Assembly: GCA_018667995.1 (NCBI GenBank)
Contig: JABIQT010000746.1
Location: forward strand, 1 to 6,899
DNA length: 6,899 nucleotides
Reading direction: 5' to 3'
From: Candidatus Latescibacterota bacterium
GTDB lineage: Bacteria; JAAXHH01; JABIQT01
Each line of letters opens with the position of its first letter. Within the stretch, counting starts at the first letter, position 1. Shown piece after piece: positions 1 to 6,899 of this stretch. Made by a program: the position numbers and the translations under genes. The notes under the pieces are model-generated. The model saw nothing but the letters and a program-made list of their open reading frames with translations, was not told the DNA's origin and did no database searches.

Positions 1-401
1 CCTGCTGCCCGAATACCATCGAGATCTCTGACGCACCCGTCCACTACAGCACCGACAACTCCGAGTGCCTTTTGAAGATGGGCCATTCCATCTCCAAAAA
101 TAGCCGCGCGATTGGGACGGGAATCCACATCCTTGAAGACTGTGACAATCGGCCCCGTTAGATCCGCCAGATAATCGTAGAATGTATCCCACGAAAGGTC
201 CGGCGGGGTTGGATCGAGGGGAGTCGCCTCGACGGTTACTGCATATCCAATGATGGCCCCCATCTCCGGCAGCAAGTATCGGATTTCAGGTCCCGTATAG
301 TCTTCATTGGCATAACCCTCGACTTCAGCCATGGCATTGAAAACCGTGGCGGAGTCAAGTTCGCGTAGGTGGTCCAGTATGCTTTGGTCGATCTGATTCA
401 T
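1..401 (-). CDS. RraA-family protein (HMG aldolase / oxaloacetate decarboxylase-like), C-terminus missing
   Basis: The first 133 residues are visible; the rest lies beyond the left edge. I translated the frame by hand from ATG at 401, which has an AGGAG Shine-Dalgarno site (407-411) five bases upstream. The diagnostic part is residues 103-126: GDGMAHLQ followed by an Ala/Gly-Val segment and DGCVRD. This is the RraA/4-hydroxy-4-methyl-2-oxoglutarate aldolase signature. In characterised aldolases the Arg of VRD (R125 here) contacts the pyruvate moiety and the following Asp (D126) binds the divalent metal. The family includes class II pyruvate aldolases, oxaloacetate decarboxylases and the RNase E inhibitor RraA. 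The family is clear, but the substrate is not. Full-length members usually have about 160-240 residues, so a substantial C-terminal part is absent. The gene is divergent from the DUF2911 pair. The catabolic genes further right on the same strand suggest, by inference, an enzymatic role on oxo-acids rather than RNase E control. Confidence 0.85.
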   Translation of the reverse strand, partial: MNQIDQSILDHLRELDSATVFNAMAEVEGYANEDYTGPEIRYLLPEMGAIIGYAVTVEATPLDPTPPDLSWDTFYDYLADLTGPIVTVFKDVDSRPNRAAIFGDGMAHLQKALGVVGAVVDGCVRDLDGIRAA

Positions 402-526: not shown

Positions 527-1039
527 ATGAAGGCGGCGATTAAAATTGGATTGAGCACGGTATTTCTGGTATTGTTTTCCTGCGGAATGTTCACTTCAGA
601 GACGACCTCTGAGATCAAACTTGAGGAGTTCACCCTATCGGTCACCTCCGAACTAGCATCCATGGGCGAGAGCGACCGCGTTGAAGTCGTATTCCCTGGC
701 CGAACACTAAAATTGGGGAACGAGCGTCCGGCCACCTTTCGAACGGACACGAACCTGCTATCGGGTCCCGGCTACTTGTACGAAGGTGAATACACGATTT
801 GGCTTCAGCGTGGATTAAAGGACAATTGGTTTCTCATCTATAGCCGCAACCTTGAGAGCAACGAATATCTTGAGGAATATGATTCATCCATTCTACCGCT
901 CAACTATCGCAAGGTCGCCGATGTCGAAGAAGATCTTTCAATCTATCTGACCACACAGGATGACAATGGCTTAATGCTGATTTCCTGGGGTGTACACCGA
1001 TTCAATACGGGTTTTACGTTGCCTCCATCCAAGAAATAA
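527..1039 (+). CDS. DUF2911-like putative lipoprotein, divergent short paralog
   Basis: This is a 170-residue exported protein of unknown function. The N-terminus has a charged start (MKAAIK), a hydrophobic stretch (residues 8-18) and a lipobox-like LFSC, so Cys19 would be lipidated. Gly20 follows it rather than Asp, so the usual +2 rule would allow outer-membrane sorting. The ATG has GGAG (517-520) six bases upstream. Residues 71-163 align by eye with the next gene: EGEYTIWLQ against MGKYSTWLK, NWFLIYSRN against QWALVFNSE, and NGLMLISWGVHRFNTGF against NGHMLITWGTHRLETSF. It is therefore a diverged paralog of the DUF2911 protein downstream. It lacks the family's N-terminal Tyr-x-Arg-Pro and Gly-Arg segment and the Trp-Arg before the Asn-Thr motif, keeping mainly the C-terminal half. 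It could equally be called a hypothetical lipoprotein. No catalytic motif is visible. Confidence 0.72.
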   Translation: MKAAIKIGLSTVFLVLFSCGMFTSETTSEIKLEEFTLSVTSELASMGESDRVEVVFPGRTLKLGNERPATFRTDTNLLSGPGYLYEGEYTIWLQRGLKDNWFLIYSRNLESNEYLEEYDSSILPLNYRKVADVEEDLSIYLTTQDDNGLMLISWGVHRFNTGFTLPPSKK

Positions 1040-1297: not shown

Positions 1298-1876
1298 ATG
1301 CGTCGTTCTTCCCGGTTTTTCCGCTCTGCTGCACTTGCTCTCACGATTCTCATCGCGGGTGCAGGCGCTGCGGAAGCTCAATCAAGTCGTCCGGCTGGCA
1401 TGGGCAAGACTTCTAACAATAGTGAGAATGCAGACCGCGGTATGGTCAAGGTTGCATTTGGTGATAAGAGTGTATCCATCGACTATGGTCGGCCACAACT
1501 CAAGGGGCGCGACATGCTTGCCATGGCGCCCGATGGTTTCATATGGAGGTTCGGCTCTAACACTTCCACGACCATCGAATCTTCGGCTGATGTCATGTTT
1601 GGTACCAAGAAACTGGCGATGGGCAAATACAGCACCTGGTTGAAGCATATCACGGGCGATCAATGGGCCTTGGTTTTCAATTCGGAAACTGGTATGTGGG
1701 GAGATCCTGGTGCAAAGCGGGAGAACGATATTTTGGAAATACCGCTGTCATACACCAAAGGTGGCAAAGAGGTAGAGCGTTTCACGGTGGATATCATGGA
1801 TCATGGCAACAAAAATGGTCACATGCTTATAACTTGGGGCACTCATAGGCTCGAAACGAGCTTTAAGACCAACTAA
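1298..1876 (+). CDS. DUF2911 domain-containing exported protein
   Basis: This is a 192-residue protein of unknown biochemical role, predicted to be secreted by the Sec pathway. The signal peptide has an Arg-rich start (MRRSSRFFR), a hydrophobic core (residues 11-24) and a likely signal peptidase I site after AEA (residue 27), leaving Gln28 as the mature N-terminus. The DUF2911 features follow in order: IDYGRPQLKGRDM (residues 61-73), FIWRFGSNTSTTI (81-93), the MGKYSTWL turn (108-115), QWALVFNSE (122-130), and the C-terminal GHMLITWGTHRLETSF block (174-189). The first two blocks match the Tyr-x-Arg-Pro/Gly-Arg and Trp-Arg-x-Gly-x-Asn-x-Thr signatures of the family. The length, about 165 residues after cleavage, fits a single domain. 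It lies 258 nt downstream of a shortened paralog and ends at a strong terminator, so it may be transcribed alone or with that gene. Family assignment is firm; function is unknown. Confidence 0.88.
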   Translation: MRRSSRFFRSAALALTILIAGAGAAEAQSSRPAGMGKTSNNSENADRGMVKVAFGDKSVSIDYGRPQLKGRDMLAMAPDGFIWRFGSNTSTTIESSADVMFGTKKLAMGKYSTWLKHITGDQWALVFNSETGMWGDPGAKRENDILEIPLSYTKGGKEVERFTVDIMDHGNKNGHMLITWGTHRLETSFKTN

Positions 1877-1901: not shown

Positions 1902-1945
1902 AAAAAGCCGGACAGAGTACATCAGCTCTGTCCGGCTTTCTTTTT
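1902..1945. terminator. Strong bidirectional Rho-independent terminator
   Basis: A perfect 14-bp inverted repeat (1904-1917 and 1926-1939, core GCCGGACAGAG / CTCTGTCCGGC) surrounds an 8-nt loop. On the plus strand a T-rich tract with five T at 1941-1945 follows; on the minus strand the A-run at 1902-1906 supplies the U-tract. It sits between the stop codons of convergent genes (1876 plus, 1962 minus), so it can end both the DUF2911 transcript and the minus-strand catabolic operon. Confidence 0.93.
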
Positions 1946-1961: not shown

Positions 1962-3020
1962 CTACAACCACTTAGTGGCATCAATACCTACCATATCTGC
2001 AGCCTCTACGATGTCAGACCAGGTCTTGTCGTCAATCTCGATACCGTGGGCCCGCCGATGCTTCGCCATATTGAATTCAGGCTCTCCCGGCGCGAGGATC
2101 TCCGAAAATCCGGGGGCCAGTCGGCTAGATTTCACGTGAGTCATCATTGTTTCCACGTGATCGTAGTATTGATCCATCGGTGTGAAGTGCTCAATGTTGA
2201 AGACGGTAAATAGAACACCGTTGCTCTCCATAGTATTTTCACCGGCGGCACACCCTTGGCCACTGAGAGCACCACCCAATATCTCTACCATGATGCCCAG
2301 ACCATAGCCCTTATGAGCCACAATTCCACCTAAGGGTAGAATGGCGCCCCGCGGATCTGATTTCAGTTTCGTGGGATCCGTGGTCGGGTTCCCATCGGAA
2401 TCTATCATCCAACCTTCCGGAACCTGGACACCCTTGTTGGCAGCAACCCGCACTTTACCCTCAGCTACCACGGATGTAGTCATGTCCACCATAATCGGGG
2501 CCGCATCACGTCGAGGAGCCGCAAATGCAATGGGATCCGTACTCAGCTTCCCATCAATTCCTCCGAACGGCGCAATCTGATTGCCAAACTTACCTGCATT
2601 TACCGTGGCAAAGGCAATCATGCCCTCTCTGGCTGCCCTCAATGGGTACGCGCCCGCCCGTCCAACGTGACTGGTATTCCTCAAGGTAACGGTCGCCGTC
2701 CCATTCTCCCGAGCTTTCTTTATGGCGAGATCGATTGCGAACGTTCCTCCTACCTGCCCTAGTCCTCCGCCATTGTCGACAACTGCAGTACAGGGGCTGT
2801 TCTCCGTGACCTCTGTCGTCGCTGAAGCATTGAATCTCCCCTCCTTTACTATGGCCTTCACATATTCGGGATATCGAATGGCACCGTGTGAATCATGGCC
2901 GAAGAGGTTGGACTCCACCAGATGGTCGATGACCATTTGAGTCTGCTCATCCGGCACACCTGCGGCCTTGAACAGTTCCACTCCGATAGCGTGTAACGTC
3001 TGTTCCGTGAAAACTGGCAT
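1962..3020 (-). CDS. Ldh_2-family NAD(P)-dependent oxidoreductase (malate/L-lactate dehydrogenase type)
   Basis: This 352-residue cytoplasmic dehydrogenase belongs to the family of ComC (sulfolactate), YiaK (2,3-diketogulonate), AllD (ureidoglycolate) and MdhII (malate). These enzymes interconvert 2-hydroxyacids and 2-oxoacids with NAD(P)H and have a fold unrelated to classical LDH. Family motifs in order: GHDSHGAIRYPEY (41-53), with His45 matching the catalytic His of YiaK; GGGLGQVGG (84-92); TLRNTSHVGRAGAY (112-125); APFGGIDGKLSTDPIAFA (150-167); DMTTSVVAEGK (179-189); VPEGWMID (200-207); LPLGG and HKGYGLG (228-242). I chose the ATG at 3020 because AAGGAAG (3024-3030) lies just upstream; the alternative GTG at 3062 and ATG at 3041 lack such a site. 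The gene follows the 2-hydroxyacid dehydrogenase by 53 nt and is the last of the operon, before the terminator. The substrate cannot be predicted. Family confidence is high. Confidence 0.93.
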   Translation of the reverse strand: MPVFTEQTLHAIGVELFKAAGVPDEQTQMVIDHLVESNLFGHDSHGAIRYPEYVKAIVKEGRFNASATTEVTENSPCTAVVDNGGGLGQVGGTFAIDLAIKKARENGTATVTLRNTSHVGRAGAYPLRAAREGMIAFATVNAGKFGNQIAPFGGIDGKLSTDPIAFAAPRRDAAPIMVDMTTSVVAEGKVRVAANKGVQVPEGWMIDSDGNPTTDPTKLKSDPRGAILPLGGIVAHKGYGLGIMVEILGGALSGQGCAAGENTMESNGVLFTVFNIEHFTPMDQYYDHVETMMTHVKSSRLAPGFSEILAPGEPEFNMAKHRRAHGIEIDDKTWSDIVEAADMVGIDATKWL

Positions 3021-3023
3021 GTT

Positions 3024-3030
3024 CTTCCTT
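3024..3030 (-). promoter_or_regulatory. Shine-Dalgarno site that decides the Ldh_2 start
   Basis: AAGGAAG on the minus strand precedes the ATG at 3020 with normal spacing. It favours the 352-residue protein over a version with 14 more N-terminal residues (GTG at 3062). Those extra residues (mainly Arg, Lys and His) have no counterpart in the family, whose members begin close to the MPVF-type start. Confidence 0.7.
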
Positions 3031-3073
3031 TCTAATTGCATTCGCGTCCGTCGATGGTTCACATCGACTCGGT

Positions 3074-4144
3074 CTATCGGTTACTGTTTTGTGCATGTTG
3101 CTCTTTGTAGTTCTGGAGCTTTGCTTTTAAACCGGGTCGTTCTAGTACTGCAGAATTTACTACGTGCTCCGGTATCTCCCCTTTCGCGACCGCACAAGTG
3201 GCCGCGACACAATCGTGACCTATATCACGAAATAGCTCGTAGGTCCATGCAGACGAATGGGGACCGAGGATTACGTTATCCATGGACAGTAAGGGATCGT
3301 CTTTAACAGGTGGCTCATCGGTGAATACGTCCAAAGCCGCGCCCTGAATCCAGCCATGCTGCAAAGCAGTCGTGAGCGCTGATTGGTCGATTATCGGCCC
3401 GCGAGCCGTGTTTACAACGAAAGCGGTCTCTTTCATCAATCTGAGTTCGGGCGCGCCGATAAGCCCTTGGGTATGGGTAGTCAGGGGACAATGAATGGAA
3501 ACAAAGTCACTATCCTTCAACAAGGTTTCGAACGATACCAGCTCAACCCCGAGAGACTGGGCCTGGTCCGCATTTACGGCAGGATCACACGCTATAATTC
3601 GAGATGGACTGAAAGCAGGCAAGAGCGTTACGACTTCTCTGGCTATGTGCCCCAAACCCACTAATCCTACCACACGATCGCGAATCTCACAGCCCATGTG
3701 ATGAAATCGGTCATCCCATCTGTTTTCTCGAACAATGCGGTCCTTGATAACCACTCTGTGACAAAGCCCCAGGATTAATGCCAGGGTCGCACTGGCCACA
3801 GGACGACGTGTCGCTGATGGCGTTATCGTAACCATTACATCGGCTTCCGTGGCGGCATCGAGGTCTACCATTTCATAACCGACACCCGTGCGGGCTATAA
3901 GCGATAGTCTACTGTTGGTGTGGAAGGAGGATGGCACGTAGGGCTGCCCCATTGAGATAACCGCGTCAACGCCTTCGAGTTGATCCGCGTTGACAGGACG
4001 GTTGTCCTCCTCCAGAAAATGATAGGGTAAGCCTGCGGCGTCCAGTCCCTCCAATCCGAAATCCTCGAAAACCATTTGGCCGCTGCTATTTCGCAGATCG
4101 GCCACAAGCCCTACTTGAAACTCGTTGCGCATCGTTTCTTTCAT
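3074..4144 (-). CDS. D-isomer-specific 2-hydroxyacid dehydrogenase (NAD-dependent)
   Basis: This is a 356-residue cytoplasmic enzyme that should oxidise a 2-hydroxyacid or reduce a 2-oxoacid with NAD(H). The family includes phosphoglycerate, glyoxylate, hydroxypyruvate and (S)-sulfolactate dehydrogenases. Residues 1-110 form the first part of the substrate domain, with the RTGVGYEMVDL segment at 85-95. The Rossmann domain carries GLVGLGHIA (160-168), whose third motif position is Ala168 instead of the usual Gly. Asp187 lies at the end of strand 2 (IIACDP) and suggests NAD preference. The catalytic triad is complete: Arg248 in NTARGP, Glu277 in DVFTDEP and His296 in GPHSSAWT. The ATG at 4144 has GAGG (4150-4153) five bases upstream. 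There is no C-terminal ACT domain as in long SerA proteins; a polar tail (about 338-356) ends the chain. It lies 42 nt after the transporter gene and 53 nt before the Ldh_2 gene. The substrate is unknown. Confidence 0.93.
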   Translation of the reverse strand: MKETMRNEFQVGLVADLRNSSGQMVFEDFGLEGLDAAGLPYHFLEEDNRPVNADQLEGVDAVISMGQPYVPSSFHTNSRLSLIARTGVGYEMVDLDAATEADVMVTITPSATRRPVASATLALILGLCHRVVIKDRIVRENRWDDRFHHMGCEIRDRVVGLVGLGHIAREVVTLLPAFSPSRIIACDPAVNADQAQSLGVELVSFETLLKDSDFVSIHCPLTTHTQGLIGAPELRLMKETAFVVNTARGPIIDQSALTTALQHGWIQGAALDVFTDEPPVKDDPLLSMDNVILGPHSSAWTYELFRDIGHDCVAATCAVAKGEIPEHVVNSAVLERPGLKAKLQNYKEQHAQNSNR

Positions 4145-4186
4145 AGCGACCTCGTAATAACGACAGGTTGCGTCTTGATTATTCTT

Positions 4187-6181
4187 TCAAAACAGGATCT
4201 GGGAAGTGGACTTAGCGATCAATACAAGTGAAACTGCGGCCATTCCGATAAGACCCAGCCCACAGCCGTAACCCGCCAGGAGAACGGGGGCATATGCCCG
4301 CCATCGATTCACTCCGAAGCGTGGACCAAAATAGTAGCGGCCCATGACAGCTCCCAGAAAAGTTAAAATGGTATAGTGAGGCCATGCTCCGGTACCAAGC
4401 CCAGCGACGAGGCCATAAAACAGGAGCGGGGGAGCGTTCAGCACAGTTAGGATCGCATATAGGCCTGCCGTTGTCAGCACACCTGCGCCGATGTACTCCC
4501 ACTTTATGATCTGAGAGATCATGTCAGATCCACCCGGCAGCGTGGACTTTATCCAGAGCGTTTCCATCGTGGCCTGAAGGGGCCACATTTTCTCGACATA
4601 GGGATAGGCCGCTGAAGGTATTGGAGCCAGCTTCCAAATCAGCGAATAAAACACGGCGCTGAACAGGATTAGCAGCAGCAGGCTGAGTGCAGACAGTTTC
4701 ACGAGACTTCCAAATTTGGTCTTTGTCAACTCAAGCTGCCGAAAGGTGGCAACCATTCCGCTATGGTCAAATATCGGCACGGGTGCGAACCAGATGGCGG
4801 CTCCTTTATAGCCGGAGAGATAGAAAGATCCCTCCCGGGCATATGGAAAAGCGGAGCCGTAGGGCGATCCTGTAATCCCTATCATTCTTGCCCCGATATA
4901 GGAGAAGAATGGTGTCCATACAAAACCAAACAGCGCTGAAATCCAAAGGGGAAAATCCGGCACAAGATAGTACACCAGAGCAATGTAGCAAAATGTAGAC
5001 GCTGCCCAGAGAGCGATGGGAACCGACAGTCGAATATCTCCACGTCCGTCAGGTGGCTTCCTTGGACCGCTCTCGCCCTGCCCTGGGGGTTTGCGGAAAC
5101 TCCTAATTGCCGCAATGATCCCAATTGCTCCAATTACTAGGGATGTACCGATTGAGGAGAAACTTAGCCAGAAATCGATCATATTGTTAATGCTTGTAGG
5201 GATCGTAGTCATACCGGGCGTCCAGCTCGTAAGGATACCCATGTCGTATAGAAGGGGATTCGCAAAAAATGTGACTACCATCGAAGATATGAAGGTCCCT
5301 GCTACGATCCAGAACGGCAGTACGAATCCTACGAGCAGCGTGGCTAGATCAGTTCCGATCCCAATTGGACTTGCAGGTAGCACGGATCGCACTCTGGGCG
5401 TAAAATCAGCGAATGGAATTGGAACAATCTCCACGGCTTTGGTAAGCACAATCCCGGACACCGTGGGTACGACAATATAGATGATACCCCATCCGAGACC
5501 GATCATTGCCCCGATTGTAAACACCTTCCATCGCCACGTTTCGGTACCTGCAGAAGTCTCGGCAAGCGCCGTCGCACCGGACGCTTGCACCGGTGCCATT
5601 GGAAACGGCAATCTCTCTACATCGGCGGTGAGGCGAAAAAGGACATAGCCGACCGTCAGGGAGCTCACCATACCAAGGGCAGCCACTATTACTGAAATGC
5701 CTATCGGTTCGATCCACTCAACGGCCCAGAAGGAACGTTCAATCAGGGAATCTGTCCCTCTGGCGGGAATAACCCAGCTTGGAATGAATTCTGCCAGACC
5801 GTCAGCCTGTGGTGACTGTATGAGATATTGCAGCCAGATCATACGTGCGAACGGACCGCCGCTGGCCGCGGAACCTGCCGCCAATCCACTCGCGGCTAAA
5901 CCACTCGCCAGCCAGTAGAGAATGATGGTCTCTTGTGGCTTGAGCTTGACGAAGAGCTTCTTGGAGATCTCTATAAACATGATGATAGTGACCCACTCCG
6001 CAGCTCCAGCGAAGCTCTTCCCCGTTACTAATTCCAGGTAGATCGAACCCGGCAGCATGATAAGACCCACGAAAAACGCCGCCCAGACGGTTTTAAGATT
6101 AAAACCGTCCTCGTACGCCATATCGGCAGGTACTATCCTGAGTTCATCACCACGATCAATTTGATCGGCGGGAGTCGCCAT
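4187..6181 (-). CDS. Polytopic membrane transporter, OPT (oligopeptide transporter)-like
   Basis: This 664-residue inner-membrane protein has about 12-14 hydrophobic segments, at roughly 32-50, 62-78, 85-107, 157-182, 218-245, 279-308, 337-359, 386-407, 411-433, 494-516, 562-580, 583-603 and 630-656. There is no signal peptide; the N-terminus is polar and acidic. DVERLPFPMAPVQASGATA (187-205) and the C-terminal GRYYFGPRFGVNRWRAYAP (614-632) followed by a Gly-rich helix (LLAGYGCGLGLIG) resemble the OPT family and related bacterial proteins often labelled peptide transporters. I recognise this by pattern, so the OPT link is moderate. A soluble Pro/Gly/Arg/Lys-rich loop (360-384) splits the protein into halves, and residues 91-109 form an Ala/Gly/Ser-rich run. 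The start at 6181 has AGAGGA overlapping the stop codon of the hydrolase gene upstream. It most likely imports the substrate that the neighbouring enzymes degrade. Substrate and coupling ion are unknown. Confidence 0.75.
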   Translation of the reverse strand: MATPADQIDRGDELRIVPADMAYEDGFNLKTVWAAFFVGLIMLPGSIYLELVTGKSFAGAAEWVTIIMFIEISKKLFVKLKPQETIILYWLASGLAASGLAAGSAASGGPFARMIWLQYLIQSPQADGLAEFIPSWVIPARGTDSLIERSFWAVEWIEPIGISVIVAALGMVSSLTVGYVLFRLTADVERLPFPMAPVQASGATALAETSAGTETWRWKVFTIGAMIGLGWGIIYIVVPTVSGIVLTKAVEIVPIPFADFTPRVRSVLPASPIGIGTDLATLLVGFVLPFWIVAGTFISSMVVTFFANPLLYDMGILTSWTPGMTTIPTSINNMIDFWLSFSSIGTSLVIGAIGIIAAIRSFRKPPGQGESGPRKPPDGRGDIRLSVPIALWAASTFCYIALVYYLVPDFPLWISALFGFVWTPFFSYIGARMIGITGSPYGSAFPYAREGSFYLSGYKGAAIWFAPVPIFDHSGMVATFRQLELTKTKFGSLVKLSALSLLLLILFSAVFYSLIWKLAPIPSAAYPYVEKMWPLQATMETLWIKSTLPGGSDMISQIIKWEYIGAGVLTTAGLYAILTVLNAPPLLFYGLVAGLGTGAWPHYTILTFLGAVMGRYYFGPRFGVNRWRAYAPVLLAGYGCGLGLIGMAAVSLVLIAKSTSQILF

Positions 6182-6187
6182 TTTCTA

Positions 6188-6193
6188 TCCTCT
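6188..6193 (-). promoter_or_regulatory. Shine-Dalgarno site overlapping the upstream stop codon (translational coupling)
   Basis: AGAGGA on the minus strand lies six bases before the transporter ATG (6181) and shares two bases with the TAG stop of the amidohydrolase gene (6194-6192). The 10-nt intergenic gap means the two genes are almost certainly cotranscribed and probably translationally coupled. Confidence 0.7.
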
Positions 6194-6899
6194 ATTCCGC
6201 GCGTTTGTACTCGCCGATGCTGTTCCAATCAGGACGAGTCAGACCGTTTCTATCCCATACAAGCTCACCAGCTCGGAGCGTAAGCGCACACTGCAGGCGC
6301 TGTCGGCCCGTCAATCTTGCCCGGCCGGAATCCACAAAACCAAAGTCGCCCTCTAGCAGATCCAGAATGGCCATGTCAGCTTCTGCACCTTCGCTGAGCG
6401 TACCGAGTTCAGGACGATCGATTTCTTTGGCCGGTTCAATCGTTGACATTCTGATCACGTCATACAATGGAATGCCCATGTTCAAACACTTGGACATGGT
6501 TTCCGGCATCTGGGCGTTCGGAACGAGCGCGCTGTGTCTGTGGAGATCCGTACTAATTGAGTCCGGCCAGAAACCTTGATCGATGGCGGGAACGGCTATC
6601 CGGAACCAGAAGCTGCCACCACCGTGTCCAAGATCGAAGATGATTCCCCTCTGTCGAGCCTCTGTTACGTAATCATTGACGACCTTCTCGTCATCAAGTA
6701 GCGGAATGTGCTGTGCATACATGTGGGTATGTATGTCGCCAGGACTCATTTTCTCGAGAAGCAGATCTCTGTAGCTCCTCGTCGGCTGGGGAGCGAAATC
6801 GATCATGGCGATGGTGTTTGACATGCGTGCAGCCGCGATAGCCCCATCAACGGCCTCCCACCCGGGTCCTCCGAAATGTGCGGTCTTGCTTCCAACGAC
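6192..6899 (-). CDS. Amidohydrolase/deacetylase-family metallohydrolase, N-terminus missing
   Basis: The last 235 residues are visible. The frame stays open through the right edge, so the Met at 6824 is internal, not the start. Using visible numbering, the VGSKTAHFGGPGWE segment (2-15) contains Lys5, which fits the carboxylated metal-bridging Lys of this TIM-barrel class. Next come GDIHTHMYAQ (54-63, metal-binding His), RGIIFDLGHGGGSFWFR (84-100), PDSISTDLH (112-120, with the catalytic Asp118) and the closing STIEPAKEI...LGTLSEGAEAD block typical of amidohydrolases. The closest recognised group is the amidohydrolase/deacetylase metallohydrolases, of about 380-420 residues, related to dihydroorotases and N-acyl amino acid deacetylases. 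These hydrolyse amide, cyclic amide or ester bonds in small molecules. The strand-5 position, usually His in a Val-Met-Val-His segment, is Asp34 here (AMIDF). About 40% of the protein is outside the window, including the HxH metal site. It is the most upstream visible gene of the operon. Confidence 0.88.
   Translation of the reverse strand, partial: VVGSKTAHFGGPGWEAVDGAIAAARMSNTIAMIDFAPQPTRSYRDLLLEKMSPGDIHTHMYAQHIPLLDDEKVVNDYVTEARQRGIIFDLGHGGGSFWFRIAVPAIDQGFWPDSISTDLHRHSALVPNAQMPETMSKCLNMGIPLYDVIRMSTIEPAKEIDRPELGTLSEGAEADMAILDLLEGDFGFVDSGRARLTGRQRLQCALTLRAGELVWDRNGLTRPDWNSIGEYKRAE

Follow-up and report, generated by a model that had tools for sequence, protein, structure and literature searches.

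The window analysed here, a stretch of 6,899 nt, represents the entire contig C66 of genome G000 (host assembly of 6.06 Mb in 1165 contigs). Four genes are encoded on its minus strand: the C-terminal part of an amidohydrolase gene (6192..6899), the 5′ end of which runs off the contig; a gene for a predicted divergent OPT-superfamily transporter of 664 aa (4187..6181); a gene for an NAD-type, D-isomer-specific 2-hydroxyacid dehydrogenase of 356 aa (3074..4144); and a gene for a dehydrogenase of the Ldh_2 family (type II malate/L-lactate/sulfolactate/ureidoglycolate; 1962..3020). The start of the Ldh_2 gene was set at MPVF... following its relatives; a longer ORF with a GTG start begins at 3062. 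A preliminary description of this DNA had named these four families, separated by gaps of 10, 42 and 53 nt and ending at one strong terminator. The ORF coordinates confirmed the gaps, and the families hold according to Pfam, NCBIfam and, for the transporter, predicted fold. The shared terminator was also recovered, as a bidirectional intrinsic terminator (1904..1939) between the operon and a convergent gene encoding a DUF2911 protein (1298..1876, plus strand; PF11138, E 2e-30). This hairpin folds far better than shuffled sequences on both strands (z -6.7 on the plus and -5.6 on the minus strand) and is flanked by T runs on both sides, and it would thus serve the operon and the convergent gene alike. 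Four terminator-like sites were found in the window compared with 5.4 expected by chance, a count not above chance, so the case leans on the hairpin's location and its 15-bp stem. An Rfam scan of the 6,899-nt window returned no RNA families. The layout and the short gaps support an operon, and the four genes are probably cotranscribed.

The DUF2911 gene is kept between the Ldh_2 gene and an RraA-family gene in relatives, on the opposite strand. A second, diverged DUF2911-like protein is encoded at 527..1039 on the plus strand (PF11138 E 3e-5, under the curated cut-off). At the left end of the window lies the start of the RraA-family gene itself (3..401, minus strand; aldolase/decarboxylase superfamily, PF03737 E 2e-11), which shares 62-64% identity with relatives in a conserved neighbourhood and forms a separate transcription unit.

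The hydrolase fragment comprises the last 235 aa of a metallo-deacylase, an amidohydrolase of the PRK09237/cog3964 type (NCBIfam NF006689, E 3e-59). Being partial in the window, it scores 200 bits against the NF006689 cut-off of 371, and the full-length orthologue at L037 is barely over that cut-off (371.9 bits). The fragment matches PDB 2ogj (E 3e-23), which we take to be Atu3266, a solved cog3964 enzyme, and the L037 hydrolase aligns with solved members of the group (PDB 2ogj, 8je0, 8wzy and 2ics). Known substrates of Atu3266 are acetyl esters of 2-hydroxyacids, acetyl-(R)-mandelate among them. The window encodes a metal-binding Lys (VVGSK), two His (HTHMY and LGHGG) and an Asp (STDLH), and the HxH motif lies on contig C97 of the same genome; together they make up a complete binuclear metal site (HxH, Lys, His, His, Asp) that is conserved across 14 aligned orthologue rows. 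The operon hydrolase shares full-length homology and metal-site ligands with the PRK09237/cog3964 amidohydrolases, but the solved members, Atu3266 included, are distant from it and have different gene neighbours. In our main reading it would remove an acyl group, with an N-acyl D-amino acid or the O-acyl form of an (R)-2-hydroxyacid as the likeliest substrate.

Both dehydrogenases were assigned with high scores at the family level. The D-isomer enzyme exceeds the cut-offs of PF02826 (E 4e-54) and PF00389 (E 8e-14), and its catalytic Arg (NTARG), Glu (DEPP) and His (GPHSS) are kept in orthologues. The Ldh_2 protein matches PF02615 (E 9e-105; 350.9 bits against a cut-off of 38.8) and is 66-70% identical to orthologues at the same locus position. 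Neither dehydrogenase reached an NCBIfam equivalog cut-off, and the sequences therefore do not reveal which substrates they act on.

The 664-aa transporter had no Pfam match even at E 10 and no NCBIfam or PDB-sequence match, and its profile gave only a chance match against PDB sequences. A single-sequence scan of the genome contigs likewise found zero relatives, whereas an alignment-based scan recovered them; these were submitted mostly as Candidatus Latescibacterota, with some as Gemmatimonadetes or Zixiibacteriota. An AlphaFold2 model built from 42 relatives (pLDDT 81.9, pTM 0.85) resembles barley Yellow stripe 1 (YS1; PDB 7wst/7wsr), a plant OPT/YSL transporter, with a Foldseek E of 7e-10. 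In a comparison of the model with YS1, VIA aligned 547 residues with Z 20.9 and an rmsd of 4.3, and the next unrelated row had Z 4.3. The Pfam OPT domain (PF03169) was also found in four of the 42 relatives (best E 1e-12). On the strength of the predicted fold and these PF03169 matches, the protein is a divergent member of the OPT superfamily, which bears out the earlier label of an OPT-like importer. The predicted fold is common to the operon protein and YS1 over the 547 residues, but identity is only about 12% and, unlike OPT/YSL transporters, the operon protein is invisible to Pfam and paired with an FtsX-type permease. The same genome (G000) carries two more OPT paralogues, at 57% and 47% identity, neither with such enzymes beside it (L036:6742-8760 on C732 and L007:989-2971 on C111). 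By start sequence only, one of the two adjoins a recD-like gene and the other lies near a lexA-like gene.

The preliminary description had suggested that further enzymes, binding proteins or a regulator might be found by extending the contig to the right. In the same genome, C97 breaks off within the hydrolase at residue 145 and C66 resumes at approximately residue 151, a join made by protein alignment. On C97, 54 nt ahead of the hydrolase gene, lies a gene whose product is 67% identical to a protein of approximately 1,520 aa that is encoded before the hydrolase in relatives, and the operon thus appears to continue upstream of the hydrolase with a gene for a large permease; no regulator or binding protein linked to the operon was found. 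The permease is an FtsX-type protein of approximately 1,500 aa with an M28-fold ectodomain (L165:1-4266 on G000:C97; L059:4164-8732; L122:145-4581), and its Pfam domains are PA, Peptidase_M28, MacB_PCD and FtsX. The predicted ectodomain (pLDDT 79.6) resembles M28 aminopeptidases (1amp, Z 27.9 over 268 residues), and its profile also matches nicalin and the transferrin receptor. In relatives, only 1 nt separates the gene for a DUF6785/DUF6784 membrane protein (L059:2168-4162; L037:16606-18600) from the large permease gene that follows it.

We considered an active M28 zinc peptidase for this ectodomain and rejected it, as most zinc ligands and the catalytic Glu pair are lost although the M28 fold is present. 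In most rows Tyr or Phe takes the place of the zinc-binding His, which a few rows retain; the bridging Asp is Glu or some other residue, His and a non-Glu residue stand in for the Glu-Glu pair, and the last His is absent in the alignments. Ordinary zinc peptidase activity is therefore unlikely on sequence grounds. Some changed activity may remain, as PDB 2anp, in which His replaces the catalytic Glu, is titled functional.

The order amidohydrolase, transporter, D-2-hydroxyacid dehydrogenase and Ldh_2 dehydrogenase was intact in 12 of the 16 phylum-set genomes (G000, G002-G010, G012 and G013), which span three genera and two families and keep the short gaps. Three more (G011, G014 and G015) agree with this order as far as their contigs extend, being cut by contig ends, and one (G001) is rearranged; conservation of gene order in related genomes, on which the preliminary description had made the operon depend, was thus found. 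All of these genomes are metagenome-assembled, and conservation of the block is confined to one order. In G001 a DgaE-like PLP enzyme, a relative of PLP ammonia-lyases that scores below the TIGR01437 cut-off (214 bits), is encoded ahead of the transporter, and a hydrolase with 74% identity is found on a separate contig. At this locus (L044:3607-6969; L056), the DgaE-like enzyme together with a HAMP/guanylate-cyclase protein replaces both hydrolase and permease before the transporter. The flanks differ among relatives, with hut genes in L037 and L039 and unrelated genes in L043, so the four-gene block is preserved while its surroundings change. We conclude that the operon is a real and conserved one, whose enzyme families are known but whose combination is undescribed.

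Pairing of permease and transporter extends well beyond these genomes. Among 79 loci carrying the transporter family, the large permease was present in 49 and was in 26 the immediate upstream neighbour, within 600 nt and on the same strand, and a DUF6785-like protein was present in 28. The permease adjoins the transporter in records from Desantisbacteria, TA06, Omnitrophota, Abditibacteriota, Planctomycetota and Latescibacterota. An extended cassette in Desantisbacteria L122 (6665-9412) and Latescibacterota record L110 (10560-13391) adds an unfamiliar protein of approximately 295 aa, a PqqD-domain protein, an FtsX protein of 220-228 aa and an ABC ATPase; in L110 a TPR protein is encoded upstream as well. 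Outside the Latescibacterota-like phylum the OPT family is patchy, as it occurred in only three of 59 genomes among relatives of G053. In a tree of the family, the enzyme-linked transporters formed one clade of 14 rows with 100% SH-aLRT support, nested among permease-adjacent rows; row L064 was labelled otherwise only because an overlapping ORF masked its hydrolase. This nesting, together with the recurrence of the pair across phyla, suggests that permease and transporter are the older unit, and the simplest history would be that the hydrolase and dehydrogenases were inserted once, in one clade. We tentatively propose, at somewhat less than even odds, a widespread inner-membrane system in which the OPT-superfamily transporter works with the FtsX-type ABC permease, the zinc-less M28-like ectodomain acts in binding or gating, and the hydrolase and two dehydrogenases gave substrate specificity in one clade. 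A literature search on DUF6785, on M28, FtsX and OPT together, and on Latescibacterota hydroxyacid dehydrogenases found no description of a recurrent pairing between an OPT transporter and an FtsX-type permease with a degenerate peptidase domain.

Taken with its enzymes, the operon probably takes up and degrades an acylated hydroxyacid. Our main reading, to which we give a probability of slightly under one half, is that a catabolic operon has formed around a membrane cassette, with uptake, deacylation and 2-hydroxyacid oxidation or epimerisation as reactions suggested, like the substrate, by the protein families. The compound that the FtsX-type permease and OPT transporter would move through the inner membrane may be an organic anion, an ester or something small and peptide-like, with the direction of transport, the cooperation of the two proteins and the order of the subsequent reactions all putative. 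The amidohydrolase would strip an acyl group from the imported compound, and the two unrelated NAD(P)-dependent dehydrogenases would each oxidise one enantiomer of the freed 2-hydroxyacid to a 2-oxoacid, or would jointly interconvert the enantiomers. The RraA-family lyase encoded next door might then cleave or decarboxylate the 2-oxoacid. Formation of a 2-oxoacid is also suggested by the position of the DgaE-like PLP lyase gene of G001, which sits in the place of the hydrolase. Uptake, hydrolysis and hydroxyacid oxidation had been proposed in the preliminary description, and the families fit this proposal. Counting against a catabolic operon are the OPT paralogues of G000 that have none of these enzymes beside them, the distance between the hydrolase and Atu3266, and the location of the G001 hydrolase on a different contig from the transporter, which indicates that the enzyme set is separable. 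Further points against it are the sub-cut-off equivalog scores of both dehydrogenases, the search that found neither regulator nor binding protein, and a conservation seen within one order and in metagenome assemblies. The catabolic reading provides a testable operon from a phylum known almost only through metagenome assemblies.

It is also conceivable, if unlikely, that the OPT protein is the importer of peptides or metal chelates within the permease cassette, and that the enzymes are its neighbours for regulatory or historical reasons and act on a different substrate. Such an arrangement would fit the transporter-permease pairs that recur in several phyla with none of these enzymes, the nearest solved structure, which is that of a metal-chelate importer, and the enzyme-free paralogues of the same genome. 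Against it, the hydrolase gene comes before the transporter gene and the dehydrogenase genes after it, and this interleaving is maintained across two families and three genera despite changing flanks.

The closest known counterpart to the two dehydrogenases is the pair formed by SlcC, presumably of the D-2-hydroxyacid dehydrogenase family, and ComC, presumably of the Ldh_2 family, in Chromohalobacter and Paracoccus, where two unrelated families are encoded together as they are in the operon. The L-sulfolactate dehydrogenase model NF040650 is among the top matches of our Ldh_2 protein (221 bits), which also matches the ComC-type structure 2x06 (1e-57). SlcC and ComC act as a two-component racemase in sulfolactate catabolism (PMC12421959), and from the same side-by-side arrangement one could propose a two-enzyme racemase here, with sulfolactate or a close relative as substrate and net oxidation incidental. 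This is quite improbable, as 221 bits is far below the cut-off of 500 for the sulfolactate-specific model, a search of four genomes for sulfoacetaldehyde acetyltransferase (Xsc) gave nothing over cut-off, and the matches to sulfolyase-type PF04295 come from a family too broad to be informative. Moreover, sulfolactate requires no such hydrolase, and in the operon the hydrolase and OPT transporter stand in place of sulfolactate genes. A pathway that acts not on hydroxyacid esters but on N-acyl D-amino acids or amino-sugar acids, with the dehydrogenases removing 2-oxoacid products, has in its favour the sub-cut-off DgaE-like relative in the G001 operon and the word deacetylase in the name of the hydrolase family, but is very doubtful given that the main block has no aminotransferase, racemase or ammonia-lyase and that two hydroxyacid dehydrogenases would be hard to account for.

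Outside the operon, the two DUF2911 genes lie in tandem at 527-1876, and the second copy is also present in L055 and L043. HutH- and HutI-type genes come after the RraA-family gene in several relatives (L037:219-3183; L039:1916-5207), and L037 and L039 also carry a probable hutU, as judged by its position and start.
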